Source: Pseudoxanthomonas helianthi (GTDB lineage Bacteria > Pseudomonadota > Gammaproteobacteria > Xanthomonadales > Xanthomonadaceae). Taken from it: a stretch of DNA of 64,000 nucleotides. The stretch spans positions 186,629 through 250,628 of the forward strand of contig NZ_JAGKTC010000002.1 of the NCBI RefSeq assembly GCF_017939625.1, given 5' to 3'. Made by a program: the position numbers and the translations under genes. Under the pieces are notes generated by a model. It did no database searches. It was not told the origin of the DNA and saw only the letters and a list, made by a program, of their open reading frames with translations. Of this stretch, positions 2,208 through 57,757 are shown piece by piece. The stretch's first letter is position 1. The number at the start of each line of letters is the position of its first letter.

Positions 2208-2222
2208 AACCGGAGTTGCTTC

Positions 2223-3323: not shown

Positions 3324-3327
3324 CGGC

Positions 3328-4122: not shown

Positions 4123-4179
4123 TCGGGCCGCGGGTGCTAGAATTCAGCCGCCGGTTTGCCGGCAAACCACCACAGCAGC

Positions 4180-4545: not shown

Positions 4546-4590
4546 CCTGTCCGTTGCGTCAGCCATGCGTACACGCGAAGAGACAGGACC

Positions 4591-5193
4591 ATGTTCACCG
4601 GAATCATCGAAGGCGTCGGCAAGCTGGCCGCGCGGGAAGACCGCGGCGGCGATGCGCGCTTCACGTTCGAAGTCGGCAGCCTGCCGTTCGACAACGTCCA
4701 GCTCGGCGAAAGTATCGCGGTCAACGGCGTGTGCCTGACCGTGGTCGAATTCGATGCGGCCGGTTTCCAGGCCGACGCGTCGAACGAGACCCTGTCGCTG
4801 ACCACGCTCGGCGCATTGCCGATCGGCGCTGCGCTGAACCTGGAACGGGCGATGCGGCCGAGCGACCGTCTCGGCGGCCACCTGGTCAGCGGCCATGTCG
4901 ACGGCATCGGTCGCGTGCTTTCGATACACGACGACGCGCGTGCGCAGCGCTGGCGCTTCGCCGCGCCGGCCGCGTTGCTGAAGTACATCGCGAAGAAGGG
5001 TTCGATCTGCGTCGATGGGGTCAGCCTGACCGTCAACGAGGTCGACGGCGAGGGCTTCGAAGTCGCGTTGATCCCGCACACGGTCGCGCACACGCGCTTC
5101 GCCGAAACGAACGTGAGCGACGCGGTGAACCTCGAGATCGACCTGGTCGCGCGCTATGTCGAGCGCCTGCTCGGCGAAAGGAGCGGCGCATGA
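4591..5193 (+). CDS. ribE: Riboflavin synthase, alpha subunit
   Basis: Dismutates two 6,7-dimethyl-8-ribityllumazine molecules to riboflavin plus the pyrimidine precursor. The 200-aa protein has the classic N-terminus MFTGIIEGVG and two lumazine-binding barrels formed by duplication: compare GESIAVNGVCLTV in the first half with KGSICVDGVSLTV in the second, each followed by a D/E-x-x-G-F segment. It is the first gene after the FMN riboswitch. Its stop overlaps the next start (ATGA at 5190-5193), so ribE and ribBX are translationally coupled. Confidence 0.97.
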   Translation: MFTGIIEGVGKLAAREDRGGDARFTFEVGSLPFDNVQLGESIAVNGVCLTVVEFDAAGFQADASNETLSLTTLGALPIGAALNLERAMRPSDRLGGHLVSGHVDGIGRVLSIHDDARAQRWRFAAPAALLKYIAKKGSICVDGVSLTVNEVDGEGFEVALIPHTVAHTRFAETNVSDAVNLEIDLVARYVERLLGERSGA

Positions 5194-6299
5194 GCTTCGC
5201 GACCATTCCCGAGCTGCTGGAAGAAATCCGCAACGGCCGCATGGTCGTCGTCGTCGACGACGAGGACCGCGAGAACGAAGGCGACCTGATCATGGCCGCC
5301 GAACTGGTCAAGCCGACCGACATCAATTTCATGGTCACCCACGCGCGCGGGCTGGTGTGCCTGGCGATCAATCGCGAGCGCGCCGGCCAGCTTGGGCTGG
5401 CACCGATGGTGCGCAACAACACCGCGCAGTTCCAGACCAACTTCACCGTCAGCATCGAAGCGGCCGAGGGTGTGACCACCGGCATTTCCGCCTACGATCG
5501 CGCGCACACCATCCGCACCGCGGTGAAGCCCGACGCGAAGCCATCGGACCTGTCGCAACCCGGCCACATCTTCCCGCTGATCGCCCAGCCGGGCGGCGTG
5601 CTGACCCGCGCCGGCCATACCGAAGCCGCGGCCGACCTGGCGATGCTCGCCGGTTTCGAACCCGCCGGCGTGCTGGTCGAAGTGCTGAACGCCGACGGCA
5701 GCATGGCGCGGCGGCCGCAATTGGAAGTGTTCGCGCGCGAGCACGGGCTGAAGATGGGTTCCATCGCCGACCTGATCGCCTACCGACTCGCCACCGAGCA
5801 CACCGTCGAGCGCATCGACGAGCGTGCCATCGACACCGAATTCGGTCCGTTCCGGCTGATCACCTACCGCGACCGCATCGCCCACGACCTGCACTTCGCC
5901 CTCGTCCGCGGTACGCCAGACGCGACAACTCCGACCCTGGTGCGCGTGCAGGTCGAGAACCCGCTGGCCGACCTGCTGCACTGGCGCCGCGACGATTTCG
6001 GCGTGGCCGCGACCGACGCTCTGCGCGCCATTGCTGCCGAAGGCCAGGGCGTGTTCGTCGTCCTGTCCGAGCCGCGCGACAGCGAGTCGTTGCTGGCCCG
6101 GTTGCGCGCGGAGCCGGTCAAGGCTGCCAACGCCAAGGACGTCGGCCAGTGGCGGCGCAACGGCGCCGGCGCGCAGATCCTCGCCGACCTCGGCCTCGGC
6201 AAGCTGCGCGTGCTGGGTACGCCGCGCCGGCAGGTCGGCCTGGGCGGGTTCGGGCTGGACGTGGTCGAATACCTCGATCCGAAACACCTCTCCCTTTGA
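5190..6299 (+). CDS. ribB: 3,4-dihydroxy-2-butanone 4-phosphate synthase with degenerate GTP cyclohydrolase II-like domain (RibBX type)
   Basis: Residues 1 to about 200 are a complete Rib[19 protein letters not shown] (about 23-40), [13 protein letters not shown], and the [12 protein letters not shown] block that carries active-site residues. It makes the four-carbon precursor from ribulose 5-phosphate. The C-terminal region (about 205-369) has the RibA fold ([32 protein letters not shown]-like end) but lacks the three zinc cysteines and the catalytic block of GTP cyclohydrolase II; at that place it reads [21 protein letters not shown]. It is therefore expected to have RibB but not RibA activity, and a separate ribA should exist elsewhere. 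ATGA overlap with ribE; 369 aa. Confidence 0.94.
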
Positions 6300-43197: not shown

Positions 43198-44052
43198 ATG
43201 CGCATCAGTGTGGTCATTCCAGCCAAGAACGAAGCCGACGGCTTGCGTCAGACCTTGCCGCGGCTGCGCGCGGCGCAGCCCGGTGCCGAGTTGATCGTCG
43301 TCGACGACGGTTCCACCGACGACACCGCGACGGTCGCCGCCTCGCACGGCGCCACGGTGCTGTCCAGCCCCTACTCGATGGGCAACGGTGCGGCGATCAA
43401 GCGCGGCGCACGTGCCGCCGGGGGCGAAGTGCTGGTGTTCATGGACGCGGATGGCCAGCACGACCCGGCCGAAATCGCGCCACTGGTGGAACGGCTGAGA
43501 CAGGGCTATGACATGGTGGTGGGCGCTCGCGACGGCGACGGCCAGGCTAGTGCGGGCCGCAGCCTCGCCAACCGCTTCTACAATCGCCTGGCCAGCTGGA
43601 TGACCGGTCACCGCGTCGCGGACCTGACCTCAGGGTTCCGTGTCGCGCGCGCGGATCGCTTCCGCGAGTTCCTGCACCTGCTGCCCAATGGATTCAGCTA
43701 TCCGACGACCAGCACCATGGCGTTCTTCCGCAGCGCATATCCCGTGGATTACGTGCCGATCCGGGTGGCGCGGCGGGTGGGCAACAACAGCCATATCCGC
43801 CCGATCAAGGACGGTGTGCGCTTCCTGCTGATCATCTTCAAGATTGCCACGCTGTACTCGCCCCTGAAGTTGTTTGCGCCCGCGGCGATGGTCTTCCTAC
43901 TGCTGGGGATCGGCTGGTACGGATGGACGTTGGCTACCGAAGGCCGTTTCACCAACATGAGCGCCTTGTTGCTTAGCGCGGGCGTCATCGTGTTTCTTAT
44001 TGGCCTGATCTCGGAGCAGATCACGGCACTGACGTATCGCCGGGACCCTTAG
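43198..44052 (+). CDS. Family 2 glycosyltransferase, polyprenyl-phosphate-sugar-synthase-like
   Basis: 284 aa. GT-A domain with VVIPAKNEADGLRQTLPRL, LIVVDDGSTDDTATVAASHGA, GNGAAIKRGARAAGGEVLVFMDADGQHDPAEI (DxD), ADLTSGFRVARADRF; then two membrane helices near the C-terminus (LFAPAAMVFLLLGIGWYGWTL and SALLLSAGVIVFLIGLI). This layout is that of DPM1/ArnC-type enzymes that load a sugar on undecaprenyl phosphate. The donor sugar is not readable. AAGGGGG lies just upstream of the ATG. It is the first gene of the glycan island and precedes a GT4 by 11 bp. Confidence 0.86.
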   Translation: MRISVVIPAKNEADGLRQTLPRLRAAQPGAELIVVDDGSTDDTATVAASHGATVLSSPYSMGNGAAIKRGARAAGGEVLVFMDADGQHDPAEIAPLVERLRQGYDMVVGARDGDGQASAGRSLANRFYNRLASWMTGHRVADLTSGFRVARADRFREFLHLLPNGFSYPTTSTMAFFRSAYPVDYVPIRVARRVGNNSHIRPIKDGVRFLLIIFKIATLYSPLKLFAPAAMVFLLLGIGWYGWTLATEGRFTNMSALLLSAGVIVFLIGLISEQITALTYRRDP

Positions 44053-44063
44053 ATCGGACACGC

Positions 44064-45203
44064 ATGCGTACGTTGCACATCACGCGGAACTTCCCGCCAT
44101 TGCGCGGCGGCATGGAACGATTGAACGCGAAGATGTTCGAAGCCTTGCTGACCCATGACGAGATGTCCGCGTTGATTGGGCCGGCTGGCAGCTCAGGCTT
44201 CGTGAAGCCTGGAACGAACGTCAAAGAACTTCCGAGCGGGGCAACGACGGCAACCATCCTGGCGAGCATCACCAAGGGAATAGCCATGGCGAGGCATGTA
44301 CGCCCCGACGTGGTGTTGGCAGGCAGCGGATTGGCCGCACCAGCGGCGGTGTCGGCGGCGCGCGTCTGCGGAGCGATTCCTGCCGTCTATCTGCACGGGC
44401 TGGACATCATTGCGCCCAGTCGCTTGTATCGTGCCATATGGCTACCATGCATCCGTCGCTGCCAGCGTGTCCTCGTCAATAGTGCAAACACGCGACGACT
44501 CGCGATCGAGGCTGGGGTCCATGCGTCGCGAATCAACATCGTGCATCCGGGGGCCGACTTGCCGGACTCGGATCCCGAAGCACGCGGGCGTTTTCGGGCC
44601 CGATACGGCATCGATGAAGCCACGCCAGTCTTGCTTTCCGTGGGTCGAATGACCACGCGCAAGGGCTTGGCCGAATTCGTGGCCCGTGCATTTCCGGCAA
44701 TCGTAGATGAGCGCCCAGAAACGCAACTCATCATCATTGGCGATGAGGCGATCGATGCCCTGCATCGAGGGACTGGTGCGGGATTTGGGCGGGTCAGGGC
44801 AGCTGCGTTAGAGGCTGGGATCTTGGATTCGGTGCGTTGGCTAGGCCCGTGTAGCGATCGGGAACTGTCGGATGCCTACCGGGGCGCAGATGTACATGTG
44901 TTTCCGATACGCGATATCCCAGGTGATGTCGAAGGCTTCGGCATGGTCGCGATCGAAGCAGCGGCACACGGACTTGCCACCGTTGCGTTCAATGTTGGTG
45001 GCGTATCTGACGCCATCATGGGAGGAGAAAGTGGACACCTTATTTCTGCGGGCGACTATTCGGCATTTGCGAATGCCGTGATTGAAGTGCTTTCGGAAGG
45101 CACGACAAAAATGGCCGCTGAGGCACGAGCCTTCGCCGCAGGTTTTTCGTGGGATCGCTTCGGGGGGGAAGTTGTCGCGGCGTTAGGGCGGCCGGGTGAC
45201 TAG
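44064..45203 (+). CDS. Family 4 glycosyltransferase
   Basis: 379-aa GT-B enzyme. N-terminal domain HITRNFPPLRGGMERLNAKMFEAL and YLHGLDIIAPSRLYRAIWLPCIRRCQRVLVNSANTRRLAIEAGV; C-terminal donor domain PVLLSVGRMTTRKGLAEFVARA, VRWLGPCSDRELSDAYRGADVHVFPIRDIPGDVEGFGMVAIEAAAHGLATVAF, which carries the E-x7-E motif (EGFGMVAIE). Donor and acceptor unknown. Base composition drifts toward lower GC through this gene, in contrast to the pilus genes before it. Confidence 0.88.
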   Translation: MRTLHITRNFPPLRGGMERLNAKMFEALLTHDEMSALIGPAGSSGFVKPGTNVKELPSGATTATILASITKGIAMARHVRPDVVLAGSGLAAPAAVSAARVCGAIPAVYLHGLDIIAPSRLYRAIWLPCIRRCQRVLVNSANTRRLAIEAGVHASRINIVHPGADLPDSDPEARGRFRARYGIDEATPVLLSVGRMTTRKGLAEFVARAFPAIVDERPETQLIIIGDEAIDALHRGTGAGFGRVRAAALEAGILDSVRWLGPCSDRELSDAYRGADVHVFPIRDIPGDVEGFGMVAIEAAAHGLATVAFNVGGVSDAIMGGESGHLISAGDYSAFANAVIEVLSEGTTKMAAEARAFAAGFSWDRFGGEVVAALGRPGD

Positions 45204-45276
45204 CCCGCTGCTTGGATGCCAAGAATGCGAGGGCCGCTCTGCCATCGAGCAATCGAAAGCAACTAAGATAGCGCAG

Positions 45277-46353
45277 CTATAGGCTGCTTGCGGATAGCAG
45301 CGCATCCAACTGCCGGGCGACGCCAGTCCAAGACGGTAATGCACCATAATCAATGCGCTCGGCAGGCAAATGCTCGAGGATGCGTCTTGACAAGTCCGTC
45401 GCGCTGCCGATTTTCGCGAGGAATTTTGGGTCGTCGTGCAGCATCCAACGCACCGGGGCCGTCGCCGTCGCGACCACTGGTATGCCGCATGCCATTGCTT
45501 CGCAGAGTTTTGCGGGGTAACTGTAGCGACCGAATGCGGTATCGGCCGTGATCGTGCAGGAGACGTCCAGCGCATTGAGTAGCACCGGCAGCAATGCGTC
45601 ATCGAGGTAACCTAGCGCAATCACTCCGGGCGCGGCGCGGGCTTCCGCGGGCGGGTGTCCGCTCAGGACCAGGAGCGCATCGGGGCGGCTCTGCCGCACT
45701 TGAGCAAAGCATTCCAGCAAAATATGGGTACCGCGGCTCTCCGTCCAGCTTCCAGAGTAGCCGAGTAGCGGCGCGTCTTGTGGTAGACCGAGGCGCTCAC
45801 GGCAGACGGTCCGCTCCATCGGCACGAAACCAGGATCAGCCGCCATTGGCAAGATTTCTACCGCATGGCCGCTGTGGCGATGCGATTGCAGACGTTGCGC
45901 GAGTTGAGGGCCCGCCGCCGTCACGAGATCCGCGGCACGGACCGATTGTCGCCACTTCCAGTGCAATGGCAGGTTCCAGCGCATGTAGGCTTCGTAGTTG
46001 TCGTAGGCGTCGATCGCGAGCCGCCCGCCGGCATGTTGCGCAAGTCGTTGCGCCAGCCATCCATACCAAGCGTCCGAGCAGCCAACTGTCCAGTCGGGAC
46101 GGAACGCCTGCGCTTCCTGCGTCAACGTCGCCACCAACCGACGTGGCCCTAGCGCAAGTACGTCGTGGCTGGACCAGATCACGCCGTCGCGCTCAAGGGT
46201 AGTAGCTTGTATGCGACGATGGCTGCAAAGCAGTACGCGCACCTCGTGCCCTAGCGTGGCTAGCGCCACCGGGAGGTGGTGGAAACGGCCATATGGCCGT
46301 TCGATCAGATCGCGCTGCTGGGGATGACGCTTGGTGATGAAGAGGATTTTCAA
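45277..46353 (-). CDS. Family 4-like glycosyltransferase
   Basis: 358-aa GT-B protein: MKILFITKRHPQQRDLIERPYGRFHHLPVALATLGHEVRVLL at the N-terminus and APLLGYSGSWTESRGTHILLECFAQVRQSRPDALLVLSG, ALDVSCTITADTAFGRYSYPAKLCEAMACGIPVVATATAPVRWML in the donor domain, where the KLCEAMACGIPVV segment is typical of the family. It appears to start with TTG (complement of 46351-46353), overlapping the stop of the upstream GT as TTGA. Substrates unknown. Confidence 0.82.
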   Translation of the reverse strand: MKILFITKRHPQQRDLIERPYGRFHHLPVALATLGHEVRVLLCSHRRIQATTLERDGVIWSSHDVLALGPRRLVATLTQEAQAFRPDWTVGCSDAWYGWLAQRLAQHAGGRLAIDAYDNYEAYMRWNLPLHWKWRQSVRAADLVTAAGPQLAQRLQSHRHSGHAVEILPMAADPGFVPMERTVCRERLGLPQDAPLLGYSGSWTESRGTHILLECFAQVRQSRPDALLVLSGHPPAEARAAPGVIALGYLDDALLPVLLNALDVSCTITADTAFGRYSYPAKLCEAMACGIPVVATATAPVRWMLHDDPKFLAKIGSATDLSRRILEHLPAERIDYGALPSWTGVARQLDALLSASSL

Positions 46354-47570
46354 GACATGCTCGGAATATGGGCGAGATAATCGCAGATGGCGCTACCCAA
46401 TCGCGCAAGATTGCGATCGCCGTTGGCGAGCAATGCGTCGCGCGCCGGCTGGGGCTGTTGTGAAGAGAGTACTTTTGCGACCTTTCCCGCAAGGTCGGCG
46501 GCATCGCCCGTACGGAAAAAGACCACATCGCCCTGATCGATCTCGAGGTTGACTGGAATGTCGGAAACAACGCATGGGACGCCCAATCCGATCGCTTCGT
46601 ACACGGAACCCCCGCCGGGGCCGCCTTCGAATCGGGTAGGTTGGATGAGTGCCAAACACCCACGGAGCAAGGCTAGCTGATCGCGTTTGGGAATTAGCCC
46701 GAGAAAGTGCGAATATCGCGCGATACCAAGCGATTCGGAGAGGGTTATGAGCTCGCCATAGTGGCGCGGATCGCGGTGATCGATGGGGTCTCCGGTAAGT
46801 AAGAGCTGCAAATCCAGGTCGGGGCGCAGCTTCCGCAGCATCGCGAATGCTCGTAGCGCCGTTGCGTGATCCTTGTGCTTCCAGAAGTGGTTGCATACCG
46901 CCAGATAATGCGGGCCAATCCCGTGGCGTCTGCGCGCGTCGAGGGGGTCGGATTCGAACCACCATTCCCGTGCATATGGCGTGTAAGGTATCGTCAGAAT
47001 TCGGTTGTCCGGGATACCAAGAAAGATTGAAGCATCGTTGGCGGCGGCCCTTGAATTGACGATTACCGCATTCGAATCTTTGGCTATCCTCTCGAATCGG
47101 AGATCACGGTTCCTGCGGATTCGCGCTGAAAATAGATCCGGCATGTGTCGATGCTGAAAGTCGAACAGATAACCGACTCGCGGGATGGGCGACTGGCCGA
47201 GAGGAAGCATGGTCGGAAACACTATGTCGGCGCCGACTTTGGATGCGGTCTCGACAATGCCGCGCCCATTGGCGGTACATGCGATCACTCGGTGACCACT
47301 TGCGATATCGAGTGCGGCTCGTCGCAAAGCGGCTGGACTGCCTGCATCCGTGGCCCCGCGACCACCAGCTTGCCTAAGCCGCCACTGACGCAATCCCGCG
47401 TGGATAGTCCGCCGGACAAGCGAGGGTTGCGGGCACGCAAAGCAGACGTCGAAATTCCGGACTACGCTAGGGTGCAGGATCGCCGTTGCCAGCACCCGAG
47501 CAAGGTCGACGCCGCCGTTCCAGTCGACAAACCCGTGTAGCGGGAAAAGAAGTGACTTGATCTTGCTCAA
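46350..47570 (-). CDS. Family 4 glycosyltransferase
   Basis: 406-aa GT-B protein. YLFDFQHRHMPDLFSARIRRNRDLRFERIAKDSNAVIVNSRAAANDASIF (acceptor half) and HYLAVCNHFWKHKDHATALRAFAMLRKLRPDLDLQLLLTGDPIDHRD, IPKRDQLALLRGCLALIQPTRFEGGPGGGSVYEAIGLGVPCVVSDIPVNLEI (donor half, with an E-x-n-E-like pair). Start is TTG at 47570, with CCAGG a few bases upstream. It is coupled to the next GT by a 4-nt overlap and divergent from the GNAT-WbqC gene by 71 bp. Confidence 0.83.
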   Translation of the reverse strand: MSKIKSLLFPLHGFVDWNGGVDLARVLATAILHPSVVRNFDVCFACPQPSLVRRTIHAGLRQWRLRQAGGRGATDAGSPAALRRAALDIASGHRVIACTANGRGIVETASKVGADIVFPTMLPLGQSPIPRVGYLFDFQHRHMPDLFSARIRRNRDLRFERIAKDSNAVIVNSRAAANDASIFLGIPDNRILTIPYTPYAREWWFESDPLDARRRHGIGPHYLAVCNHFWKHKDHATALRAFAMLRKLRPDLDLQLLLTGDPIDHRDPRHYGELITLSESLGIARYSHFLGLIPKRDQLALLRGCLALIQPTRFEGGPGGGSVYEAIGLGVPCVVSDIPVNLEIDQGDVVFFRTGDAADLAGKVAKVLSSQQPQPARDALLANGDRNLARLGSAICDYLAHIPSMS

Positions 47571-47641
47571 TGCCTGGATTCGCTCGATCCTGTGTGACCT
47601 TCTATGCTATAGCAATTGGGCCGTCATTCCGGGGGACGGGC

Positions 47642-48721
47642 ATGCTGACCGAAGACGAGATTGCCTCCACGCTGGCGCCTCTCAATGGGGGCCACTTCCG
47701 AATCGACGACGTACGTGCTTATGCCCGTAAGCTGCTTGCCCGCGGGAAGGTGGTTTGCGCGCGTGATGGAGACGAGCTGGTTTCGTATGTGCTTTTCTAT
47801 GACGATGGCCCAGAGGCGTTCATATCCATGGTGTGGACGAATCCACGGATGCTCCGTCAGGGATTCGCGACGGCAATTCTTGAAGGGCTGATCCGCAAAA
47901 TAGCGAAGCCAATTGCACTGGAGGTCGACGCCGAGAACGCCGTTGCGCATCGTCTTTACAAGAAGCTCGGGTTCCAGCGTGAATCACGAAACGGTACGCG
48001 TGAGCGTTGGCTGCTCAAGCGCCGTGTCGCGATAATGCAGCCATATTTCTATCCCTATGTGGGATATCTGCAGTTGGTTGACGCGGCCGATTTCTTCGTG
48101 TTCTATGATGATGTCCATTTCATTAAGCGTGGACGCATCCATAGGAACAACATTCTCGTCAACGGTCAGGAACACGGGTTCACCGTGCCGATCGCAGGTG
48201 CGAGCCAGAATAAGCTGATTCTGGAGACTAACCTCCACGACATGGATCGCTGGCGCACTCAATTCCTTAGGCAGCTGACGCATGCCTACAGCAAAGCTCC
48301 ATTCTTTGGAGATGCTATGGGTGTAATCGAAGCTGCGCTCCAATCATCGCCTCGTAGCATTGCTGATCTGGCGATTGCTTCTGTGGTAGGGATACACACA
48401 TACCTGGAGAAGCCGCTTAATTGGGTGCGTTCGTCGGAATTTTCACCTGAAACGCATGGAATGGAAAAATCTCAGCGCTTGATCGAAATTACGAAAAAAT
48501 CGAATGGCTCGCGGTATGTCAATACGCCGGGAGGCAAGAAACTGTACGACAGGCTGCATTTTCTCGAGCATGGAGTAGCGCTGTCTTTCTTGCGGCCCGA
48601 AATAATGGAGTACCGCCAGTATGGGGATTTGTTCGTCCCTGGTTTGTCCGTCATCGACCTGATGATGTTCAATACGCCGGAGCGCATTCGCGACATGATC
48701 GCCAACTACAATATTGAGTAG
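47642..48721 (+). CDS. GNAT N-acyltransferase fused to a WbqC family domain
   Basis: 359 aa. Residues about 1-127 look like a GNAT domain: VSYVLFYDDGPEAFISMVWTNPRMLRQGFATAILEGL (motif A RQGFAT at 72-77) and DAENAVAHRLYKKLGFQRES (motif B). Residues 129-359 match the WbqC family: VAIMQPYFYPYVGYLQLVDAADFFVFYDDVHFIKRGRIHRNNIL, LNWVRSSEF, RLIEITKKSNGSRYVNTPGGKKLYD and FVPGLSVIDLMMFN. WbqC genes occur in O-antigen loci next to amino-sugar genes. N-acylation of perosamine is a possible role but is inference. ATG 47642 follows GGGGGACGG; an ATG at 47570 is in frame but adds an unconserved segment. Confidence 0.8.
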   Translation: MLTEDEIASTLAPLNGGHFRIDDVRAYARKLLARGKVVCARDGDELVSYVLFYDDGPEAFISMVWTNPRMLRQGFATAILEGLIRKIAKPIALEVDAENAVAHRLYKKLGFQRESRNGTRERWLLKRRVAIMQPYFYPYVGYLQLVDAADFFVFYDDVHFIKRGRIHRNNILVNGQEHGFTVPIAGASQNKLILETNLHDMDRWRTQFLRQLTHAYSKAPFFGDAMGVIEAALQSSPRSIADLAIASVVGIHTYLEKPLNWVRSSEFSPETHGMEKSQRLIEITKKSNGSRYVNTPGGKKLYDRLHFLEHGVALSFLRPEIMEYRQYGDLFVPGLSVIDLMMFNTPERIRDMIANYNIE

Positions 48722-48735
48722 ATCTTCTCTCTCGT

Positions 48736-49830
48736 CTACGTGGAAGCCTTCACTATTGTGGCGATTTCTTCAACGGCTTCGTCACCCAGAGCGTGCCAAC
48801 TAGGGAGATTCATGCCTCGTCGTGAGATATCTTCCGCGATAGGAAGCTGTAGAGAGATATCCTGGTACATTGGCATATGATGCACAAGTGGAAACGTGGG
48901 GCGCGTTTCGATGCCCGCATTTGCGAGTCGTTCACGTATCAAATCACGACTACTGGCATTTGGCGCCAGCATCGTAATCATCCAGTGCGAAGATGATTCG
49001 CCCGGACTCGCATGTTGAAAAACCATAGGGGTACCCGTCATCGCGCGGCGGTAGGACGTGGCCAGCCGAGTCTTCCGCTTGAGAATTGTGTCGATCCGTT
49101 CGAGCTGGGCGAATCCGATTGCAGCGCAGATGTTGGTCATGCGGTAGTTGTAGCCGATGATGTCGTGCCAGTACTCGCGGTTCGCGGCCAGTCCCTGGCC
49201 ACGCAGGCGGCGCAGCATCGAATCCAGTGCAGAGTCATTGCATACGACCATGCCGCCCTCGCCTGTGGTGATGGTCTTGTTGCCGAAGAAACTAAAAGTC
49301 GCAACATCGCCAAAAGTCCCTACATGACGGCCATTCAAGCGGGTTCCGATCGCTTCGGCACAGTCTTCCACCAGCTTAAGTCCATATCTCGCGCACAATG
49401 CTGCGAGCCGCGACATTTCGCAGGCACCGCCATAGAGGTGCACCGCCATGATCGCGCGAGTGCGCGGCGTAATGCGTTGTTCGACGTCGGCTGGATCCAT
49501 TTGCCATGTGTTGGGTAGCGAATCGCAGAAGACAGGAGTCGCGCCCACGTAGCGTATCGCGTTGACCGACGCGATATAGGTCAGCGAGGGAACGATGACC
49601 TCATCGCCGGGTCCGATACCCAGTGCGAGGAGAGCCAGATGCAATGCCACAGTACCGTTACAAACGCTTATCGCGTGCGGCATACCCGTGAAGCGCGCGA
49701 AACCCGCCTCGAACTCCTGGATGAAATGTCCCTTGGAGGATATCCAGCTGCTATCTAGGCACTCTAGTACGTACTCGCGTTCATTGCCTGAAAGGTCTGG
49801 CTGGTAAATTGGGATGCGGATTCGGGGCAT
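48736..49830 (-). CDS. per: GDP-perosamine synthase (DegT/DnrJ/EryC1/StrS aminotransferase)
   Basis: 364-aa PLP aminotransferase. It matches the E. coli O157 RfbE/Per pattern closely through long blocks: IYQPDLSGNEREYVLECLDS-SWISSKG, SVCNGTVALHLALLALGIGPGDEVIVPSLTYIASVNAIRYVGATPVF, VEDCAEAIGT, TFSFFGNKTITTGEGGMVV (PLP lysine in GNK), REYWHDIIGYNYRMTNICAAIGFAQLE and GMNLPSWHALGDE. The expected reaction converts GDP-4-keto-6-deoxy-D-mannose, made by the Gmd encoded in the same gene run, to GDP-perosamine. Last gene of the minus-strand run from 57200; 18 bp after the flippase stop. Confidence 0.88.
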   Translation of the reverse strand: MPRIRIPIYQPDLSGNEREYVLECLDSSWISSKGHFIQEFEAGFARFTGMPHAISVCNGTVALHLALLALGIGPGDEVIVPSLTYIASVNAIRYVGATPVFCDSLPNTWQMDPADVEQRITPRTRAIMAVHLYGGACEMSRLAALCARYGLKLVEDCAEAIGTRLNGRHVGTFGDVATFSFFGNKTITTGEGGMVVCNDSALDSMLRRLRGQGLAANREYWHDIIGYNYRMTNICAAIGFAQLERIDTILKRKTRLATSYRRAMTGTPMVFQHASPGESSSHWMITMLAPNASSRDLIRERLANAGIETRPTFPLVHHMPMYQDISLQLPIAEDISRRGMNLPSWHALGDEAVEEIATIVKAST

Positions 49831-49848: not shown

Positions 49849-51198
49849 CTAGTAGTCCTTGGCGAGTGCGATTGCGACCAAACGAGGGCCAAGTATGATG
49901 GTGGGAAGAAGGCTCGTAACAACGTAAGTGGCAATAGTGACCCACGGCACTGCCGTCACGCCGAATCGGTAAATGGCCCAGGTTTTTAGGGCCAAGCAGG
50001 TCAATGCAAAAAAACTGGCTACGATCACTTGGTAACGCATGATGCTGGCGGCATTGAAGAAGGTGGCAAGTGCAGTGCCGATCGCATCGATCACAGACCA
50101 GACGGCGAACCCGGCGAGAAGAGTGCCGCCGACGATCAGCGGGCGGTGCACCCAAAGCGAGACGATGCGATCGAAACCGAAACCGAACACCAGCGCCGCG
50201 CAAACAGAGACAATTGCTGCAAGCAGCAATGACTTGCGCAGCGTTCGTATTACCCAGTCGTGGTTACCAGAAGCCAACGCTTGGCGGTAAATTGGCCATA
50301 GCGGCGCCCAGATCAATCCGAGGCTCAGTGGTACGATTGAAAACAAGCGCTGCACGATCGCATATGTGCCGGCGTCAGTCGGGCCGCATAGAGTGGAGAT
50401 CAGCGGGAGGTCTGCCGAGAATGCCAGAGCGGCTGAAAGCTGTAGTACGAAGAACAGTAGTCCTTCGTGACGGATTCGGCGGGCGAGGTCGGGGCGGTGC
50501 CCGGAAGGCGAATACGCAAGCGTCCGGTCGCGCGTAAGCGAAAGGGTGTTCGCGACGGAGGCAAATAGTGGTGTGGCCACCGCTGCAGCGGTGAGGACTA
50601 CGAATGAGGCTTTTGCCCACGCCAACCCGATCACCAGCGCAAGCGTCGTTAGTTGGCCCAGCGCTTGCCAACGGAAAGCACGGTCACCGCGGCCTAGACC
50701 AAGCTGGATCCGAGTGGCAAGGTTGAGCGGAACCGCGAGAACGACGGTGAACAGGACTACTGCGACTGCTGCGCGACAAGTTCCGGCCGCGTCGACCGGC
50801 AGGCCCAACAGGCGATGCCAAGGTATTAGCGGCAACGCCACAACCATGGCTGCCGCCAATGCCACCGCGATCATTACCAATGTCCGGCGCCCTTCTCGAA
50901 TTACCGCCGCTACTTCAATGGTGGCGCCGCGGCCATGCGCGGCAGCGACGAGATTCATCGTACCGTTGCCGAAGCCGAAATCAAGGAACCCGGCGAAGAC
51001 CACCAGTGATACCAACGTAGCCCATGCGCCGAATTGTGCTGGTCCCAACGCGTGGAGGACGAAAGGTACACTGAGAAACAGATTTGCGGCTGCAGCCAGC
51101 TTGGCCGCCAGCGACCAGCTTCCGGTCTGCACGATCATTCGGCCGCGCGGCCCGAGCCAGTCACGCAGCGACGAGGGGGGCGAGGATCGAGGCATCAC
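49849..51198 (-). CDS. Wzx-like polysaccharide/lipid-linked oligosaccharide flippase
   Basis: 449-aa integral membrane protein with about 12-14 hydrophobic segments and the MOP-superfamily entry WSLAAKLAAAANLFLSVPFVLHALGPAQFGAWATLVSLVVFAGFLDFGFGNG. Wzx flippases turn undecaprenyl-linked glycans to the periplasmic face. Substrate cannot be read. It starts with GTG at 51198, or ATG at 51195, immediately at the fcl stop, so it is cotranscribed with fcl, gmd and per. Its presence suggests a lipid-linked oligosaccharide, not only single sugars. Confidence 0.85.
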   Translation of the reverse strand: MMPRSSPPSSLRDWLGPRGRMIVQTGSWSLAAKLAAAANLFLSVPFVLHALGPAQFGAWATLVSLVVFAGFLDFGFGNGTMNLVAAAHGRGATIEVAAVIREGRRTLVMIAVALAAAMVVALPLIPWHRLLGLPVDAAGTCRAAVAVVLFTVVLAVPLNLATRIQLGLGRGDRAFRWQALGQLTTLALVIGLAWAKASFVVLTAAAVATPLFASVANTLSLTRDRTLAYSPSGHRPDLARRIRHEGLLFFVLQLSAALAFSADLPLISTLCGPTDAGTYAIVQRLFSIVPLSLGLIWAPLWPIYRQALASGNHDWVIRTLRKSLLLAAIVSVCAALVFGFGFDRIVSLWVHRPLIVGGTLLAGFAVWSVIDAIGTALATFFNAASIMRYQVIVASFFALTCLALKTWAIYRFGVTAVPWVTIATYVVTSLLPTIILGPRLVAIALAKDY

Positions 51199-52137
51199 TT
51201 ATGGCCGATGCGCGGCATACGCCTCGTAGGTTTCGCGCAATCCCATTTCCAAGGTGGTCTGAGATCGCCAACCAAGCGCTTCCAATCGCGAAGTATCGAG
51301 CCGTTTACGGGGCGTTCCATCTGGTTTGGACGGGTCGAATCGCAGTGTGCCTCGATAGCCCACGATTTCCGCAATCAGGCTTGCCAGGTCGGCAATGCTA
51401 ATTTCCTGCCCTGACCCGATATTGATCATGGCTGGATCGCTATAGTGATGCATCAGTAGCCGTAATGCATCAGCAAGATCATCAACGTGCATGAGCTCCC
51501 GCAACGGGCGGCCGGTCCCCCAGATCACCACCTCGGGAGCGCCAGCGAGCTTGGCTTCGTGAAAACGCCGGATCAGTGCCGGTACCACGTGCGAGTTCTC
51601 TGGATGGTAGCTGTCTCCAGGGCCGTAGAGATTGGTGGGCATCGCCACGATGGCATCGAAACCGTATTGGCGACGATAGGCCTGGCACATCTTTAGTCCT
51701 GCGATTTTCGCAATCGCATACGCTTCATTGGTTTGTTCCAGTGGTCCGGTCAACAATGCGTCTTCGCGGAGAGGTTGCGGCGCGAGTTTCGGATAGATGC
51801 ACGAAGAACCAAGAAACAACAGTTTCTTCGTGCCATGTTTCCACGCCGAATGGATGACATTGGTCTGAATCGCGAGGTTATCCCGGATGAACTCACCGGG
51901 ATAGGCGTCGTTGGCATGGATACCCCCCACGTGTGCGGCACACAAGAAAACGTAATCGGGGTGCTGCGATGAGAAGAATGCATCGACTGCAGCCTGATTG
52001 GTGAGGTCGAGTTCGTCGTGGCCGCGAAAGAGAAGGTTGTCGGCGCCATCGGCGGCAAGCCCACGAACGAGGGCACTTCCCACTAATCCTCGGTGGCCCG
52101 CGACGTAGATCCTGTCATGCAGATCCATGGTTGTCAC
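51199..52137 (-). CDS. fcl: GDP-L-fucose synthase
   Basis: 312-aa short-chain dehydrogenase/epimerase-reductase that converts GDP-4-keto-6-deoxymannose to GDP-L-fucose. NADP loop [50 protein letters not shown]; catalytic Ser/Tyr/Lys in [11 protein letters not shown] and [63 protein letters not shown]. It competes with Per for the same intermediate. Overlaps gmd by 4 nt. Confidence 0.95.
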
Positions 52138-53246
52138 TCTTGAGGAGAATTCGCCCGATAACCTGCGCCGACAACAAGTGCGTCTCTTTTGGCGAGTTCA
52201 AGGTCCGACTGGATCATCTCTCGTACTAATTCGGAGAACTGAGTTCGGGGGGTCCAGCCCAGACGCTCGCGCGCCTTGGAGGCATCGCCAAGGAGCGTTT
52301 CGACTTCCGCCGGTCGATGGTATCGGGGATCAATGGCCACGATGCACTGCCCAGGCTTCGCGCCAGCCCCCGGCAGGGCGGACGCCACGATGCCGCGCTC
52401 TTCGGCACCGCTTCCATGCCATGTGATTCGTATGCCAAGGCAATCCGCAGCCTGCTCTACGAATTCACGGACGGAATGCTGTTCACCGGTGGCTATAACG
52501 TAATCTTCCGGTTGTACCTGTTGCAGCATCAGCCATTGCATTTCCACATAATCGCGAGCATGGCCCCAGTCGCGCCGGGCATCCAGGTTGCCGAGGTACA
52601 GGCAGTCCTGCAGACCCAGATGGATGCGGGCCAAAGCACGGGTGATCTTGCGGGTAACGAAAGTCTCGCCTCGGATCGGCGATTCGTGGTTGAACAGGAT
52701 ACCGTTGCAAGCATACAAGCCGTAAGCCTCACGATAGTTGACCGTGATCCAGTACGCGTAGAGCTTGGCCACACCATAAGGCGAACGCGGATAGAACGGA
52801 GTGCTTTCTCGCTGCGGAGTTTCCTGGACCTTGCCGTAAAGTTCCGAAGTCGAAGCCTGGTAGAAACGAGTCTTCTGTTCCAGCCCGAGGATGCGGATCG
52901 CTTCAAGCAGGCGCAGGGTACCGAGGCCGTCGGCGTTGGCGGTGTATTCCGGAGTTTCGAACGATACCTGCACGTGGCTCTGCGCGCCGAGGTTGTAGAC
53001 CTCGTCCGGCTGCACCTGCTGCAGGATGCGGATCAGATTGGTCGCGTCTGTCAGGTCGCCATAATGCAGAACCAGCCGCCGTCCCGGCTGGTGCGGATCC
53101 TCGTACAGATGATCGATGCGCTCGGTATTGAACGACGACGCCCGGCGCTTGATGCCGTGCACCTCGTAACCCTTGCCAAGCAGGAACTCGGCCAGGTAGG
53201 CGCCGTCCTGGCCGGTGATGCCGGTGATCAATGCACGTTTGCCCAT
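52134..53246 (-). CDS. gmd: GDP-mannose 4,6-dehydratase
   Basis: 370-aa extended SDR enzyme making GDP-4-keto-6-deoxy-D-mannose. NADP loop [85 protein letters not shown]; catalytic [40 protein letters not shown] (Thr/Glu/Tyr/Lys); and [19 protein letters not shown]. It feeds both fcl and per here. 13 bp after the stop of the preceding membrane protein gene, so in the same transcript. Confidence 0.97.
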
Positions 53247-53259
53247 GGGTACAGTCTAG

Positions 53260-55197
53260 CTAGCGTCGATCGAATTGTGGATGGGTGGCAGACTTCTGTT
53301 CGACGAGGCGTTCGAGCGCCCGTGCCGCCTCTTCATTTTGCCCCAGCCTGCCCAGGTGCCGCAGATGCTCAATGTGGGCCCGGGCCCGTTCGGGCTGTCC
53401 GCTGGCCGCGTAGAGCTTGGCCAAGGTGATCTGGTACTCGGCGACCCTTGGGGCCAAGCGCGCGGCTTCCTCCCACAATTGAGCCGCAAGCGTGGGATTG
53501 CCCAGGCCATTCAATGCGTAATTGCCCTGGATATTGAGTATTTCAGGGTCGCGGCCATGGCTCAGTGCAGCGGTGAAAACTGCATCCATTTCCTGGGTGG
53601 GCAAGGAGCAATGGCGTTGCAGGCCGCAATCGACTAGCGACCCCAGTGCGCCTCGTGGTTGGGGTCCCGGCGGATTGGTGTGCAGGCGTTCCCGCAAGTT
53701 GTTCCACCAGCGTACATCCACTGGTGAGCCGCTGCGATTGGCCAGGATGATAGCGGTCGTCGCAGGCAAAGGCGTGGCGCCATCGACCTGCATGGCCCGT
53801 TCGAGTGCCGCAAGCGCAGGCGCCAGATAAGGCGAATCGATTTGGTACCCGCTTAATACGGCTAAGTCTCTCGCAAGGCCGAAAGTCGCCCGCGGAGAGG
53901 TTGGATGCTTGGTGGCCTCGGCCATCGAAAAACGTAGCGGGTTGCTCCATTCGCGCGCACGCAACGCGGTGAAAGCGCCGTACAAGATCAATAGCAGGAG
54001 GGCCATCAGCCAGACTGCCCTACGCATACTGTCCTTGCCTGCGACGTGTCGCAGCACATCGCCAAGTACCAGGCACAGGCCGAACGAAGCGAAGTAATTG
54101 CGGTGTTCGTAGACCAGTTCCAGCGGAATCACCGTGGCGGTGAGCAGTTGTGCGCAGAAGAACCAGAGCATGCCCAGGGCTGCGAGCGGCCAACGACGGC
54201 GCGATCGCCAGGCGGCCAGAAGCAAGACCGTAATGGCTATCAACGAAACCGCGGTGGAAGGGGGCGACAACAATCCGCGCGATACCGGATAGTCGTCGTG
54301 GTATAGGCTGAGCTGGCCCATGTCCGGTAGCAAGGTCCAGTGAAGGTAGTCCATCACCACGCGGCTTTCGGTCATCAACCGCTCGACAAGGCCGAAGTCG
54401 CGTCCCGGGTAGTGCCCGCCGCGCAGCAGGCCCGGCAGCAGCCAGGCCATGCCGAGCAGGCCGGGAAGCACCAGCCCCGGCAAGTACATGATCCAGAGGC
54501 GCCAGTCGCGTCGACTGTCGAAGCCACGGAAACCAAACAGGATCCATTCGACGCACAGTGCATAAAGTGGCAGCAGTGCCGCCGATTCCTTGACTGTCAG
54601 ACCCATAGCGGTGCAGCCGACCAGTCCCGTCAGCAGCCTGGTCCAGCCTTTGCCTTGCGCGATCAGGTGCTGGCGACCATCCATGTACAGGCACAGGCCT
54701 AGGAATACGAATGTGTGGCTCAGGCTTTCCATGCGCTGAACCACGAACAGGATTGCCATTAGATTGATCGGGTTCAGCGCCCAGATCGCGGCGACCCATA
54801 GTGCGATACGGTTGCACCGGACGGTATCTATGGCATAGATGACGGCGAACAAGCGGCGCGCAAGTGCATAGGCCAAGCAGGTATTGAGCAAATGGACAGC
54901 TACATTGGTCAACTTCATCCACCATGGATCAAGCCCAAATGTGGCGTGGTTGAAGGCAAAGCTGAGCATCGCCAGCGGCCGAACCAATTCCTGTGATGGA
55001 GACGAAAAGGCTGCTGCCAGCCACGCATGCCAGTCGCTATTCCAACCTACGTGCAGCGCTGCGTTATCTACGATGTTCGGGTAATCGTCGAACACGAAGC
55101 CACCAGCCAAGCCTCCTGCATATACGGCAGCGATGCACACCAGTAATCCCAGCAGGGCACACAATGTAATGCGATCCGGCGATGGGGGATGGCTCAT
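53260..55197 (-). CDS. TMTC/GT-C-like multi-pass membrane protein with C-terminal helical repeats (paralogue 1)
   Basis: 645 aa. About 10-12 membrane helices in residues 10-420, then a soluble helical, TPR-like region (LNGLGNPTLAAQLWEEAARLAPRVAEYQITLAKLYAASGQPERARAHIEHL). An acidic pair D37-D38 (GGFVFDDYPN) lies in the first periplasmic loop, as in GT-C glycosyltransferases; RPLAMLSF (73-80), FVVQRMESL (151-159) and EHRNY (364-368) are shared with its neighbour. The layout resembles TMTC-type O-mannosyltransferases. Acting as a protein or pilin glycosyltransferase is inference. It overlaps the paralogue upstream by 4 nt and precedes gmd. Confidence 0.7.
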   Translation of the reverse strand: MSHPPSPDRITLCALLGLLVCIAAVYAGGLAGGFVFDDYPNIVDNAALHVGWNSDWHAWLAAAFSSPSQELVRPLAMLSFAFNHATFGLDPWWMKLTNVAVHLLNTCLAYALARRLFAVIYAIDTVRCNRIALWVAAIWALNPINLMAILFVVQRMESLSHTFVFLGLCLYMDGRQHLIAQGKGWTRLLTGLVGCTAMGLTVKESAALLPLYALCVEWILFGFRGFDSRRDWRLWIMYLPGLVLPGLLGMAWLLPGLLRGGHYPGRDFGLVERLMTESRVVMDYLHWTLLPDMGQLSLYHDDYPVSRGLLSPPSTAVSLIAITVLLLAAWRSRRRWPLAALGMLWFFCAQLLTATVIPLELVYEHRNYFASFGLCLVLGDVLRHVAGKDSMRRAVWLMALLLLILYGAFTALRAREWSNPLRFSMAEATKHPTSPRATFGLARDLAVLSGYQIDSPYLAPALAALERAMQVDGATPLPATTAIILANRSGSPVDVRWWNNLRERLHTNPPGPQPRGALGSLVDCGLQRHCSLPTQEMDAVFTAALSHGRDPEILNIQGNYALNGLGNPTLAAQLWEEAARLAPRVAEYQITLAKLYAASGQPERARAHIEHLRHLGRLGQNEEAARALERLVEQKSATHPQFDRR

Positions 55198-57200
55198 GCT
55201 GGTTCCGCCAGCTGGGACGCACTCGCATCCGCTTCGAGCTTCTGGCGAAGTTGGATTAGTTCGTTTTCATAATAGCCATAGTGCTGCAACAGCCAGCGAT
55301 GCAGGCTGGCCATGTCGCGGATGCGTGATGCAGATTGCTGTCGTTCAAGTCGGCGGAATTCGTTCAGATGCACGATTCCTAGCCGGGGCGATCCCGCGTT
55401 GCCAAGCGCTGCAGCTTGCACAAGTGCATAGTCGGCATCTGGTTCAAGTGCCAGAACTGCATTGAACCAGCGCAATGCCTGGTTCGGATCGTTGTGGGCC
55501 AGCGCGATCAGGCCGCGAACATGCCAGAAGCCACGCTTGCGCAAGGATGCCGCGCTTTGCGGGTTCGACTCCGCTGCCGCAACCAACTGTTCCAGTCCGG
55601 TAAGGCCCATGCCAATACAGTCGACCGCGGTTGGGTTGCGGCTGGCATCCTGGAACCACTGGTACAAGCCGTAATTCCATCGTCGTGCGCTGCTCAGCGT
55701 GCGTAACGCCCGTCGCATAGTGTCCGCGCCCAATCGGCCTGTCGTCTGACATTCCAGACCGACGGCACTGATCGCCACGTCAATATCTTCTGGCGCTGTA
55801 AGCTGGGCTTGGTGCAGTCGTCCCAAGCCGGCCCGGATCTGCCCTGTTCGAATTTCCTCGGCAGCAGCGCTAACTTGGGCACGTGCGGAATCTTGCTCGT
55901 AGTCGGCAGATACCATGCCTAGTAGTGCCGGGTTTCCCCAAGTAATGGCTCGAGCATGAGTCAGCAGGAGCAATGTGGCCAACAATAGGCTTGCGGCAGC
56001 GCCGCGATAGCGTGGATAAGGACCGGGGCGGAGCAGGAAATGTGCCACCGGCCAGCCGAATAATGCCATCGGCAAGTAATTGCGATGCTCGAAATAGAGC
56101 TCCAGCGGAATTGTCGTGCTTTCAAGCATGTGCGCGACGAGGAAGAACAGGACGGCTGAGCACAAGGCCGGGAAACGTCGCCGAAATACGATGGCCCAAA
56201 TGGTGCAGGCCAGCAAGCCGAGCATTGCGGGTAGCGTGGTCCATGGCGCCAGCCAGCCTCGCGAAGGCGAGAAGCCTTCGACGTAGACACCGCCACCACC
56301 GGCGCGCGGCAGTAACCATTGGCCCAGATAGGACCACAGGGCGCGCGGCTCGCTGAGCAGGCGTTGCGGCAATGTCCAATCGCGACCGTACAGCTCCGAG
56401 AGCGGCCACAGCAGCCAAGCTGTGTATGCCAGATAGCTCAGGATCGCCAGGGTCGGCAGACCCAGGCACAGCCATGCTGCGAGGTCGGTCTGCCGTCGAT
56501 CGCCTGTCGAATCCTGCGTTGGCCTGAGGCATAGCAGATAGACCAATCCTGCCAAGGTTGGTGCAAGGAAGCCGTTGGCCTTGGACAGTCCGGCCAGCAG
56601 GGTAGCAGTGCCCACGCCCATTATCACCCAGCACCAACCGTGAGTGGTGCGAGAGGCGTCGAACGCCAACACTGCGCGATCCCAGGCCAGCAGCGCTAGC
56701 AGGGCGAAGGTCATCGGCAGCATCGCTTCGCGCTGGACTACATAAAGCGTGGTGGAGACGAAGAACGGATGCGCGGCCCACAATGCGGCGGCTAGCAACG
56801 GGGTCCAGCGCGAGACTACAAATGTGGGGTCGCGGCGACACAGGCCGACCTGCAAGCGGGCGATCACCCAAGCCAGCAGGCCGCCGTTGAGGAGATGCAA
56901 GAGCAGGTTAGTGCGCTTGAATGCCCAGGCATTGGCTGGCCAGTCACGTGCGTCTAACAAGAAGCTGAGCAACGCGACAGGGCGACCGGTAGGGTCGGCA
57001 TTGCCAGAAGTGAGGTAGTACAGGAAGGTCGGCCAGTCTCGTATGCGACCGTAGGCACCTAATACATCAAGGTTGCCGAAATCGTCGAACAGGAACGGTC
57101 CTGTCAGGCCCGGCCAGTAGGCCCAAGCAACCAGCAAGACCAGCGCAAGACCGGCAAATGGCAAACGCCAGCTCTGGGAGTGAGCGAACACGCCGCTCAT
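55194..57200 (-). CDS. TMTC/GT-C-like multi-pass membrane protein with C-terminal helical repeats (paralogue 2)
   Basis: 668 aa with the same plan as the next gene: N-terminal helix, acidic pair D39-D40 in GPFLFDDFGN, RPVALLSF (73-80), YVVQREAML (153-161), TTIPLELYFEHRNY (362-375), about 10-12 helices, and a C-terminal TPR-like region including LIALAHNDPNQALRWFNAVLALEPDADYALVQAAALGNAG. Shared motifs show a tandem duplication that has diverged widely. It is the first gene of a six-gene minus-strand run and begins 128 bp after the pilA stop, behind the pilA terminator. Function not known from sequence; membrane glycosyltransferase is the best guess. Confidence 0.7.
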   Translation of the reverse strand: MSGVFAHSQSWRLPFAGLALVLLVAWAYWPGLTGPFLFDDFGNLDVLGAYGRIRDWPTFLYYLTSGNADPTGRPVALLSFLLDARDWPANAWAFKRTNLLLHLLNGGLLAWVIARLQVGLCRRDPTFVVSRWTPLLAAALWAAHPFFVSTTLYVVQREAMLPMTFALLALLAWDRAVLAFDASRTTHGWCWVIMGVGTATLLAGLSKANGFLAPTLAGLVYLLCLRPTQDSTGDRRQTDLAAWLCLGLPTLAILSYLAYTAWLLWPLSELYGRDWTLPQRLLSEPRALWSYLGQWLLPRAGGGGVYVEGFSPSRGWLAPWTTLPAMLGLLACTIWAIVFRRRFPALCSAVLFFLVAHMLESTTIPLELYFEHRNYLPMALFGWPVAHFLLRPGPYPRYRGAAASLLLATLLLLTHARAITWGNPALLGMVSADYEQDSARAQVSAAAEEIRTGQIRAGLGRLHQAQLTAPEDIDVAISAVGLECQTTGRLGADTMRRALRTLSSARRWNYGLYQWFQDASRNPTAVDCIGMGLTGLEQLVAAAESNPQSAASLRKRGFWHVRGLIALAHNDPNQALRWFNAVLALEPDADYALVQAAALGNAGSPRLGIVHLNEFRRLERQQSASRIRDMASLHRWLLQHYGYYENELIQLRQKLEADASASQLAEPA

Positions 57201-57270: not shown

Positions 57271-57300
57271 AAAAAAGAAGGGCTGCTCACGCAGCCCTTC
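57271..57300 (-). terminator. Intrinsic terminator after pilA
   Basis: On the minus strand: GAAGGGCTGC-GTGA-GCAGCCCTTC followed by TTTTTTATGC. A perfect 10-bp stem with six T residues, 28 bp past the pilA stop. It should give a short, abundant pilA mRNA and limit read-through into the membrane-protein genes. Confidence 0.9.
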
Positions 57301-57328: not shown

Positions 57329-57757
57329 TTAGTTACGGCACTCGGACGGCAGGTACTTGTCAGTGATGTTGGCGCCCTTCTTGCACTTCCACTTGACGGA
57401 ACCAGCGGCCGTGGAAGCCGAAAGAAGCAGAGTGGCGTTGTTGGGAAGCTTCGGTTCAGCGCCACTATAGGTAATCGTGACAACACCATCGACGGTGGAG
57501 ACGCTGGTCACGTACTTGCCGTTGATCGATGCAGCGGTCGGCAGACCGGCACTTGCGTTGCTCGGCGGATAGTGGCCGGTAGACGAATACGTCTCGGCCG
57601 TGGCCAGCTTAGCCGCGGCCGCCAAGTTGATACCTTCCGAAGCCTTGGTGCGGACCGCGTAGTCCTGGTAGGCCGGGATGGCGATGGCCATCAGGATGGC
57701 GATGATCGCAATGACGATCATCAATTCGATCAGGGTAAAGCCCTGCTGCTTCTTCAT
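57329..57757 (-). CDS. pilA: Type IV pilus major pilin PilA
   Basis: 142-aa type IVa prepilin: leader MKKQQG cut before F7, then FTLIELMIVIAIIAILMAIAIPAYQDYAVR with the Glu at mature position 5. The globular part ends with a cysteine pair, C125 and C140 (WKCKKGANITDKYLPSECRN), forming the D-region loop. AGGGGA precedes the ATG at 57757. It is processed by PilD and driven by PilB/PilC from this window. Many Ser/Thr residues in 57-120 could carry O-glycans, but no site can be named. It has a sigma-54 promoter and its own terminator. Confidence 0.96.
   Translation of the reverse strand: MKKQQGFTLIELMIVIAIIAILMAIAIPAYQDYAVRTKASEGINLAAAAKLATAETYSSTGHYPPSNASAGLPTAASINGKYVTSVSTVDGVVTITYSGAEPKLPNNATLLLSASTAAGSVKWKCKKGANITDKYLPSECRN

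Follow-up and report, generated by a model that had tools for sequence, protein, structure and literature searches.

The two tandem membrane proteins encoded behind pilA in the window (the whole 64,000-nucleotide stretch of Pseudoxanthomonas helianthi DNA analyzed here), designated GT-C A and GT-C B, are, taken as a whole, best explained as inner-membrane GT-C glycosyltransferases that are probably dedicated to the type IV pilin PilA encoded just upstream. An earlier note on this DNA had proposed them as candidate pilin glycosylation machinery, and this description stands because a predicted GT-C fold, a recurring linkage to pilin genes and a co-occurring likely donor synthase were found.

Both open reading frames are real, with the extents and lengths that had been proposed. 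The pilin-proximal GT-C B (55194..57200, minus strand) has 668 amino acids, with a GT-C membrane domain at about residues 1-435 and a C-terminal TPR-type domain at about 439-665, and the distal GT-C A (53260..55197, minus strand; 645 amino acids) is a second protein with GT-C and TPR-type domains. The two frames overlap by 4 bases, which suggests translational coupling. Pfam and NCBIfam searches also bear out that the pair lies between pilA (upstream) and gmd/fcl (downstream) on the same strand. The pilA gene (57329..57757, minus strand) encodes a type IV pilin of 142 amino acids from its ATG start (Pfam Pilin, 3.8e-20; N_methyl, 4.5e-12), the presumed acceptor. Downstream, gmd (52134..53246, minus strand) encodes a GDP-mannose 4,6-dehydratase (NCBIfam equivalog, above cut-off) and fcl (51199..52137, minus strand) a GDP-L-fucose synthase (NCBIfam, 1.4e-144; 481 bits versus a cut-off of 500), and both possibly serve sugar supply. 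They are followed by a gene for a putative Wzx-like flippase (49849..51198, minus strand), which matches NCBIfam WZX_like weakly (3.3e-6, below cut-off) and has no Pfam match. The remaining glycan island in the pilB-pilA interval (44064..49830) encodes three GT4-type glycosyltransferases, a GNAT-WbqC fusion and a DegT aminotransferase, and a gene for a GT2 polyprenyl-phosphate glycosyltransferase-like protein (43198..44052, plus strand; NCBIfam AglJ, 4e-36, below cut-off) adjoins pilB. GtrA-type flippase genes are absent from the island, and two are present at other places in the genome.

BLASTP alignment of A and B showed homology over most of their length (28% identity, 180/646; 2e-29). The early FDD motif described in the earlier note was found, with the acidic pair at D37-D38 in A and D39-D40 in B, and RP[LV]A[ML]LSF and IPLEL..EHRNY likewise occur in both proteins, whereas VVQR.E.[ML] describes the segment of A (VVQRMESL) and does not match that of B (VVQREAML). 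For the family alignments, 144 GT-C proteins from 80 named loci were used, leaving out the odd-length L080 B, L093 B and L090 A and, in alignment A3, also two B proteins (L108:9911-11977 and L125). The acidic pair is conserved in every non-gap row of alignments A3 and A4. In a joint alignment of 57 rows, the first Asp is invariant, as are R73, H102, W141, Q156, R157, K207, R280, H372, R373 and S438 (B numbering); 56 rows also retain the second Asp.

The GT-C fold, on which the earlier note had made its reading depend, was recovered for both A and B when predicted models were compared by VIA-align. Plain Foldseek with the whole model, run for B, gave no match at E ≤ 0.001 and returned mostly TPR proteins, so the GT-C structural match rests on VIA-align. 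The best structural matches were OST/AglB, with PMT and ArnT almost equal. In the predicted models, D39-D40 of B directly follow helix 12-33 and D37-D38 of A directly follow helix 7-27, which places the acidic residues in what would be the first external loop. The C-terminal TPR-like regions are weak in Pfam (best TPR E value 8e-4, under the cut-offs) but form clear helical repeats in the models. Also, the proposed likeness to TMTC proteins holds for the fold and for the plan of a GT-C domain followed by a TPR domain, as seen in the models and VIA-align matches, but not for the sequence family, since neither A nor B matches a TMTC, PMT or PMT_2 Pfam model at E ≤ 10. At the same threshold neither protein matches Wzy_C or PglL_A, whereas the positive control for that search, a neighbor of a Pseudomonas pilin (L181), does. 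Searches of Pfam, NCBIfam and PDB sequences linked neither A nor B to a GT-C family, and TMTC is not among the 16 Pfam families matched at E ≤ 0.01 by any of the 60 A-type members of alignment A4. One of these 60 matches PIG-U (6e-4; Pfam scan of A4), a GT-C-like family. A and B belong to a large family that is unnamed in the protein-family libraries searched. PHROGs gave nothing at E ≤ 0.001, and at E ≤ 1e-5 neither phage records searched with B nor plasmid records searched with the Pseudomonas viridiflava GT-C yielded a match.

Among relatives, a same-strand pilin gene lies within 600 bp upstream of the GT-C gene in 93 of 112 testable loci and is missing there in 19. The adjacency of pilA and GT-C is not due to chance: many loci have a GT-C gene of this family following a pilin gene. 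Pilin genes were identified in these surveys by an N-methylation motif together with limits on length, criteria that minor pilins may also satisfy. The duplicate loci L025, L027 and L031, recognized by eye because their contigs are equally long, were dropped from the pilin-linkage, distance, co-occurrence and terminator counts, in which further duplicates may remain, and are still contained in the gene-order counts over 124 loci. The pilB gene is present in 93 of 100 genomes and in 52 of the 56 GT-C-negative ones. A slight excess of Ser plus Thr in the pilins (fraction 0.225 versus 0.208 in 29 pilins of GT-C-negative genomes; p 0.03) is only a weak signal. Between pilA and pilB, relatives carry an island of variable content, and GT-C enzymes decorate O-antigen elsewhere (PMC11127046), as would suit a pair that modifies an O-antigen or exopolysaccharide made by the island and lies beside pilA merely because the site is an insertion hot spot. 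We regard this as quite improbable: the GT-C gene stays beside the pilin gene where the other island genes are different or missing (L058, L062, L138 and L148), and B distances track pilin distances with pilR distances removed (partial r 0.59, 17 loci).

The GT2 enzyme, with PDB matches to ArnC (4e-15), dolichol-phosphate mannose synthase (2e-14) and sll0501, presumably synthesizes the lipid-linked sugar donor. GT-C and GT2 genes co-occur across 100 genomes (38/6/2/54 for both, GT-C only, GT2 only and neither; Fisher 8e-19) and inside the genus (15/4/1/18; 7e-6), both figures being uncorrected for kinship, and the GT2 ortholog is absent from 6 of the 44 GT-C genomes. Pilin, GT-C and GT2 genes are adjacent in P. 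viridiflava, Acinetobacter kyonggiensis and Ectothiorhodospira marina. This co-occurrence, together with a GT2 gene of the monosaccharide-synthase type directly behind GT-C in L138, L148 and L149, speaks against the GT-C proteins being oligosaccharyltransferases that move to the pilin a Wzx-flipped oligosaccharide of the island and not a single sugar. Such a function would agree with the top rank of OST/AglB among the structural matches, though PMT and ArnT nearly equal them, with the three GT4-type enzymes and the weakly Wzx-like protein of the island, and with L058 and L062, where only pilin, GT-C and pilB stand in line and no local GT2 gene is found; on balance, we consider it rather unlikely.

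GT-C A and GT-C B are an old pair that mostly travels together. Of 124 loci, 48 have B immediately ahead of A and 4 have the reverse order (one uncertain), and A and B distances correlate with a coefficient of 0.78 (49 loci). B also follows the pilin once A is accounted for (0.25, p 0.007), more strongly than A does once B is accounted for (0.15, p 0.085). These data would fit a two-step relay on a single pilin, in which B attaches the first sugar and A extends it, a model that we hold to be a serious candidate falling somewhat short of an even chance. Two enzymes share a single local pilin in the window and in a few relatives, in favor of such a relay; for the window, this also speaks against the assignment of one enzyme to each pilin, B acting on one and A on another. 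However, two pilins lie within 3.5 kb in 41 of the 49 counted A+B loci (57 in total, 8 uncounted for short flanks), and L028 has a separate pilin ahead of each GT-C (p-B // p-A), with comparable mixed orders in L071, L077 and L129; these favor one enzyme per pilin. Lone A or lone B also occurs beside pilins (p-A, p-p-A, p-B), so each can serve alone, which, like the loci with two pilins, speaks against a relay. As both pilins precede both enzymes in the order p-p-B-A, the assignment of one enzyme to each pilin seems somewhat unlikely to us.

In the gap between pilA and GT-C B, a hairpin resembling a Rho-independent terminator (57277..57300, minus strand) has a 10-bp stem followed by T6, and is presumed to be an attenuator of the accessory genes. 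Among relatives, 50 of 97 pilin/GT-C junctions carry a hairpin of this kind, against a mean of 2.45 and a maximum of 6 in 20 shuffles, and the other 47 do not. The pilin accessory cassettes of P. aeruginosa are likewise described as having a terminator behind the pilin gene (PMC11841053).

For A and B as enzymes dedicated to PilA, we propose that the GT2 enzyme would put a sugar on polyprenyl phosphate at the cytoplasmic side, that a flippase would turn the lipid-linked sugar outward, and that the GT-C would transfer it to a Ser/Thr residue of PilA while the pilin is in the inner membrane, the acidic pair of the first external loop providing the putative catalytic residues. The C-terminal TPR-type domain, probably periplasmic, may grip the pilin. 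B, encoded beside pilA, would probably act first, and A might extend the glycan or glycosylate a second site or a second pilin, while the terminator after pilA would hold enzyme expression below that of the pilin. Tentatively, and with less than even confidence, we view the family as a separate, unnamed class of bacterial protein O-glycosylation, in which TMTC-shaped GT-C/TPR enzymes have evolved alongside type IV pilins, largely in Gammaproteobacteria and usually with their own polyprenyl-phosphate sugar synthase, with an old B-then-A relay on the pilin in Lysobacteraceae and Rhodanobacteraceae and a terminator setting the enzyme-to-pilin ratio. Pilin glycosylation shields Pseudomonas pili from phages (PMC11841053), and the family would extend such modification to many environmental Gammaproteobacteria; neither a report of it in those organisms nor a paper on the paired GT-C A/B family was found in the open-licence literature. 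Pilin, GT-C and donor synthase form a compact, directly testable unit, perhaps usable for glycoengineering.

Among known systems, TfpW, the arabinosyltransferase that glycosylates group IV pilin of Pseudomonas paraeruginosa (PMC11841053, PMC12369383), is placed in the GT-C class by the title of a cited paper. Compared by layout and description, it shares with the present system a glycosyltransferase gene directly behind the pilin gene, as seen in the window and in 93 of the 112 testable loci, and a terminator after the latter (PMC11841053, PMC12369383). However, the gene of TfpW has tfpX behind it, and the D-Araf that the enzyme adds comes from a separate cluster (PMC11841053, PMC12369383), whereas here a GT2 gene, and often a second GT-C, accompanies the GT-C. 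Genes of the D-Araf pathway (UbiA-type, DprE1-like) were not recognized among the nine island genes scanned. ALO-domain (DprE1-like) genes occur in 91 of 298 Pseudomonas genomes, and at E ≤ 1e-30 the joint-alignment profile matched one of the 298, P. viridiflava, whose genome (G100) has a family member and no ALO-domain match. In the pilin regions of eight genomes, those with a pilin match among nine selected for ALO, inspection by eye revealed one PglL-type enzyme (L181) and no pilA-GT-C-tfpX cassette. By hmmsearch, no family member was detected at E < 0.01 (best 0.015) in the 13 pilin-bearing genomes among 18 of 398 chosen by a 16S primer pattern.

TfpO/PilO, TfpM and PglL are of the Wzy_C/PglL type, for which A and B have no Pfam match. 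Like the enzymes proposed here, they modify pilins, as O-oligosaccharyltransferases (PMC12645811), and the gene of TfpO lies behind the pilin gene (PMC12369383). Three-component systems with a GtrB synthase, a flippase and a periplasmic GT-C follow the same logic of donor synthase plus GT-C (PMC11127046), but here the acceptor is probably a pilin, not an O-polysaccharide, and the island is without GtrA. PMT, ArnT and the OSTs (STT3, AglB, PglB) differ in that structural alignments give 7-13% identity, and in their C-terminal parts and acceptors. The human O-mannosyltransferases TMTC1-4 combine a GT-C membrane region with TPR repeats (PMC7801869), a plan that A and B share, although the latter are bacterial, pilin-linked and without a TMTC Pfam match; they show the TMTC domain plan in a bacterial setting, coupled to a definite likely acceptor.

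On the minus strand of the window, pilA is followed by GT-C B (55194-57200) and GT-C A (53260-55197), and then by gmd, fcl, a gene for a weakly Wzx-like protein and DegT. In window coordinates pilB/C/D and a glycan island (the genes between pilB and pilA) come first, on the side of pilA where B and A lie, and pilR/pilS and sucCD form its opposite flank; pil and suc gene names were assigned by reading ORFs, pilA by Pfam. The presence of gmd and fcl suggests a candidate GDP-fucose supply. One island gene (47570-48721) encodes a fusion of a GNAT acetyltransferase with a WbqC-like domain. B (668 aa) and A (645 aa), whose genes share a four-base overlap, are homologous with 28% identity. Both gave only weak Pfam matches below the cut-off, TPR foremost, with no above-cut-off NCBIfam match and no meaningful match among PDB sequences. 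The motifs that the earlier note had described for the two proteins are indeed shared, except for VVQR.E.[ML], which as written misfits B. Between pilA and B, a perfect 10-bp stem is followed by T6 (57300-57277, minus strand), and in relatives 50 of the 97 junctions between pilin and GT-C carry a similar stem-T element, whereas 20 shuffles gave 2.45 on average and at most 6. According to PMC11841053, P. aeruginosa and others have a terminator behind the pilin gene, with a proposed role in attenuating accessory genes.

Of 100 genomes, 44 contain the GT-C family (E ≤ 0.001), among them the one from which the window comes. In a scan of named genomes at least 594 stretches matched, 584 were confirmed among the matches listed, and the best 80 were used, which are biased towards B because the search pattern derived from a B-first alignment. 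They include Rhodanobacter, Dyella, Luteimonas, Solimonas, Tahibacter, Methylococcaceae, Woeseiaceae, Pseudomonas viridiflava, Acinetobacter kyonggiensis, Ectothiorhodospira and others, and two assemblies labelled Alcaligenaceae and Verrucomicrobia. Among the 112 loci with more than 1 kb of upstream sequence (from 121, three duplicates dropped), 93 have a same-strand pilin gene ≤600 bp upstream of GT-C. The 19 exceptions include L036 and L049, with pilins on the opposite strand only, and six Woeseiaceae-type loci (L122, L124, L126, L127, L144, L145), where one or two B-type GT-Cs, not directly behind a pilin, face a pilD-C-B-pilin block about 4.7 kb away; on sufficiently long contigs this block also includes pilR and pilS.

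As a control, the pilB side was inspected in 20 of the 56 GT-C-negative genomes. In 13 of them, as read by eye, the pilin immediately adjoins pilB, without an intervening gene of ≥150 aa. The remaining 7 carry other genes in this slot, some of them for large membrane proteins that hmmsearch did not relate to the GT-C family (best E 0.017, in the TPR part); two of these proteins match PMT_2 weakly. The pilin-pilB slot is a hot spot, and the GT-C family is one of its occupants. Large multi-pass proteins beside or near the pilin in GT-C-negative relatives (L199:9378-11309, L200:10214-12211, L202:5358-7436, L206:15892-17691 and L212:12653-14509) possibly represent further pilin-linked enzyme classes; four of the five had no Pfam match at E ≤ 0.01, and that of L212 matched PMT_2 and TPR weakly. 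L211 has a sulfatase-family membrane protein (3863-5872) and a weakly PMT_2-like protein (2146-3855) between pilA and pilB, and in L197 an isoprenylcysteine methyltransferase-like membrane protein (4058-5452) adjoins the pilin gene.

In 124 loci (three duplicates included), B directly precedes A in 48 and A directly precedes B in 4, plus one uncertain case; the order is pilin-pilin-B-A in 34 and pilin-B-A in 5. A quickly built tree with 196 rows and SH-aLRT support only places most of the tandem A proteins in a set of 54 rows (97) and most of the tandem B proteins in a set of 64 rows (100); A-type partners outside the former occur in L077, L104, L111, L117, L129, L136, L139 and L140. The rows nearest to the window's A and B come from L070 and L024 for both, and A and B distances correlate at 0.78 (49 loci) or, with pilR distances removed, at 0.45 (17 loci). 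Therefore, the pair is old and moves mostly as a unit. Pilin distances are tracked more strongly by B than by A (partial r given pilR 0.59 and 0.35), which tends to favour a direct action of B on pilin. As two pilins occur in 41 of the 49 counted A+B loci, each pilin may instead have its own enzyme.

The GT2 gene (43198..44052, plus strand), presumed to encode the donor synthase, adjoins pilB, and its product is similar to AglJ (by an NCBIfam match under the cut-off) as well as to ArnC, dolichol-phosphate mannose synthase and sll0501. Orthologs (E ≤ 1e-60) occur in 40 of the 100 genomes: 38 have both GT-C and GT2, 2 GT2 alone (G006, G051), 6 GT-C alone (G022, G028, G035, G037, G052, G093) and 54 neither (Fisher 8e-19; inside the genus alone 7e-6; both values ignore phylogeny). 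Since 93 genomes have pilB, 52 of these being among the 56 that lack GT-C, and 94 match Pfam Pilin, type IV pili alone fail to explain this co-occurrence. Within the stretches examined, GT2 at ≥50% identity occurs in 48 of 121 loci, in 16 of them ≤300 bp from GT-C. In L138, L148 and L149 (Pseudomonas viridiflava, Acinetobacter kyonggiensis, Ectothiorhodospira marina) the genes for pilin, GT-C and GT2 lie side by side and form compact units. L058 and L062 (G028, G037) show pilin-GT-C-pilB with neither GT2 ortholog nor island, so that there the donor must have a source elsewhere.

The best-supported reading of A/B is a candidate pilin-dedicated GT-C O-glycosyltransferase, in line with the earlier note, which would be fed by a polyprenyl-phosphate sugar. 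New here are the definition of the GT-C family, the cassette logic and the conserved pair. The proposed likeness to TMTC proteins holds for domain plan and fold, although A/B lack a TMTC Pfam match. A/B would act in the manner of TfpW as described in PMC11841053 and PMC12369383.
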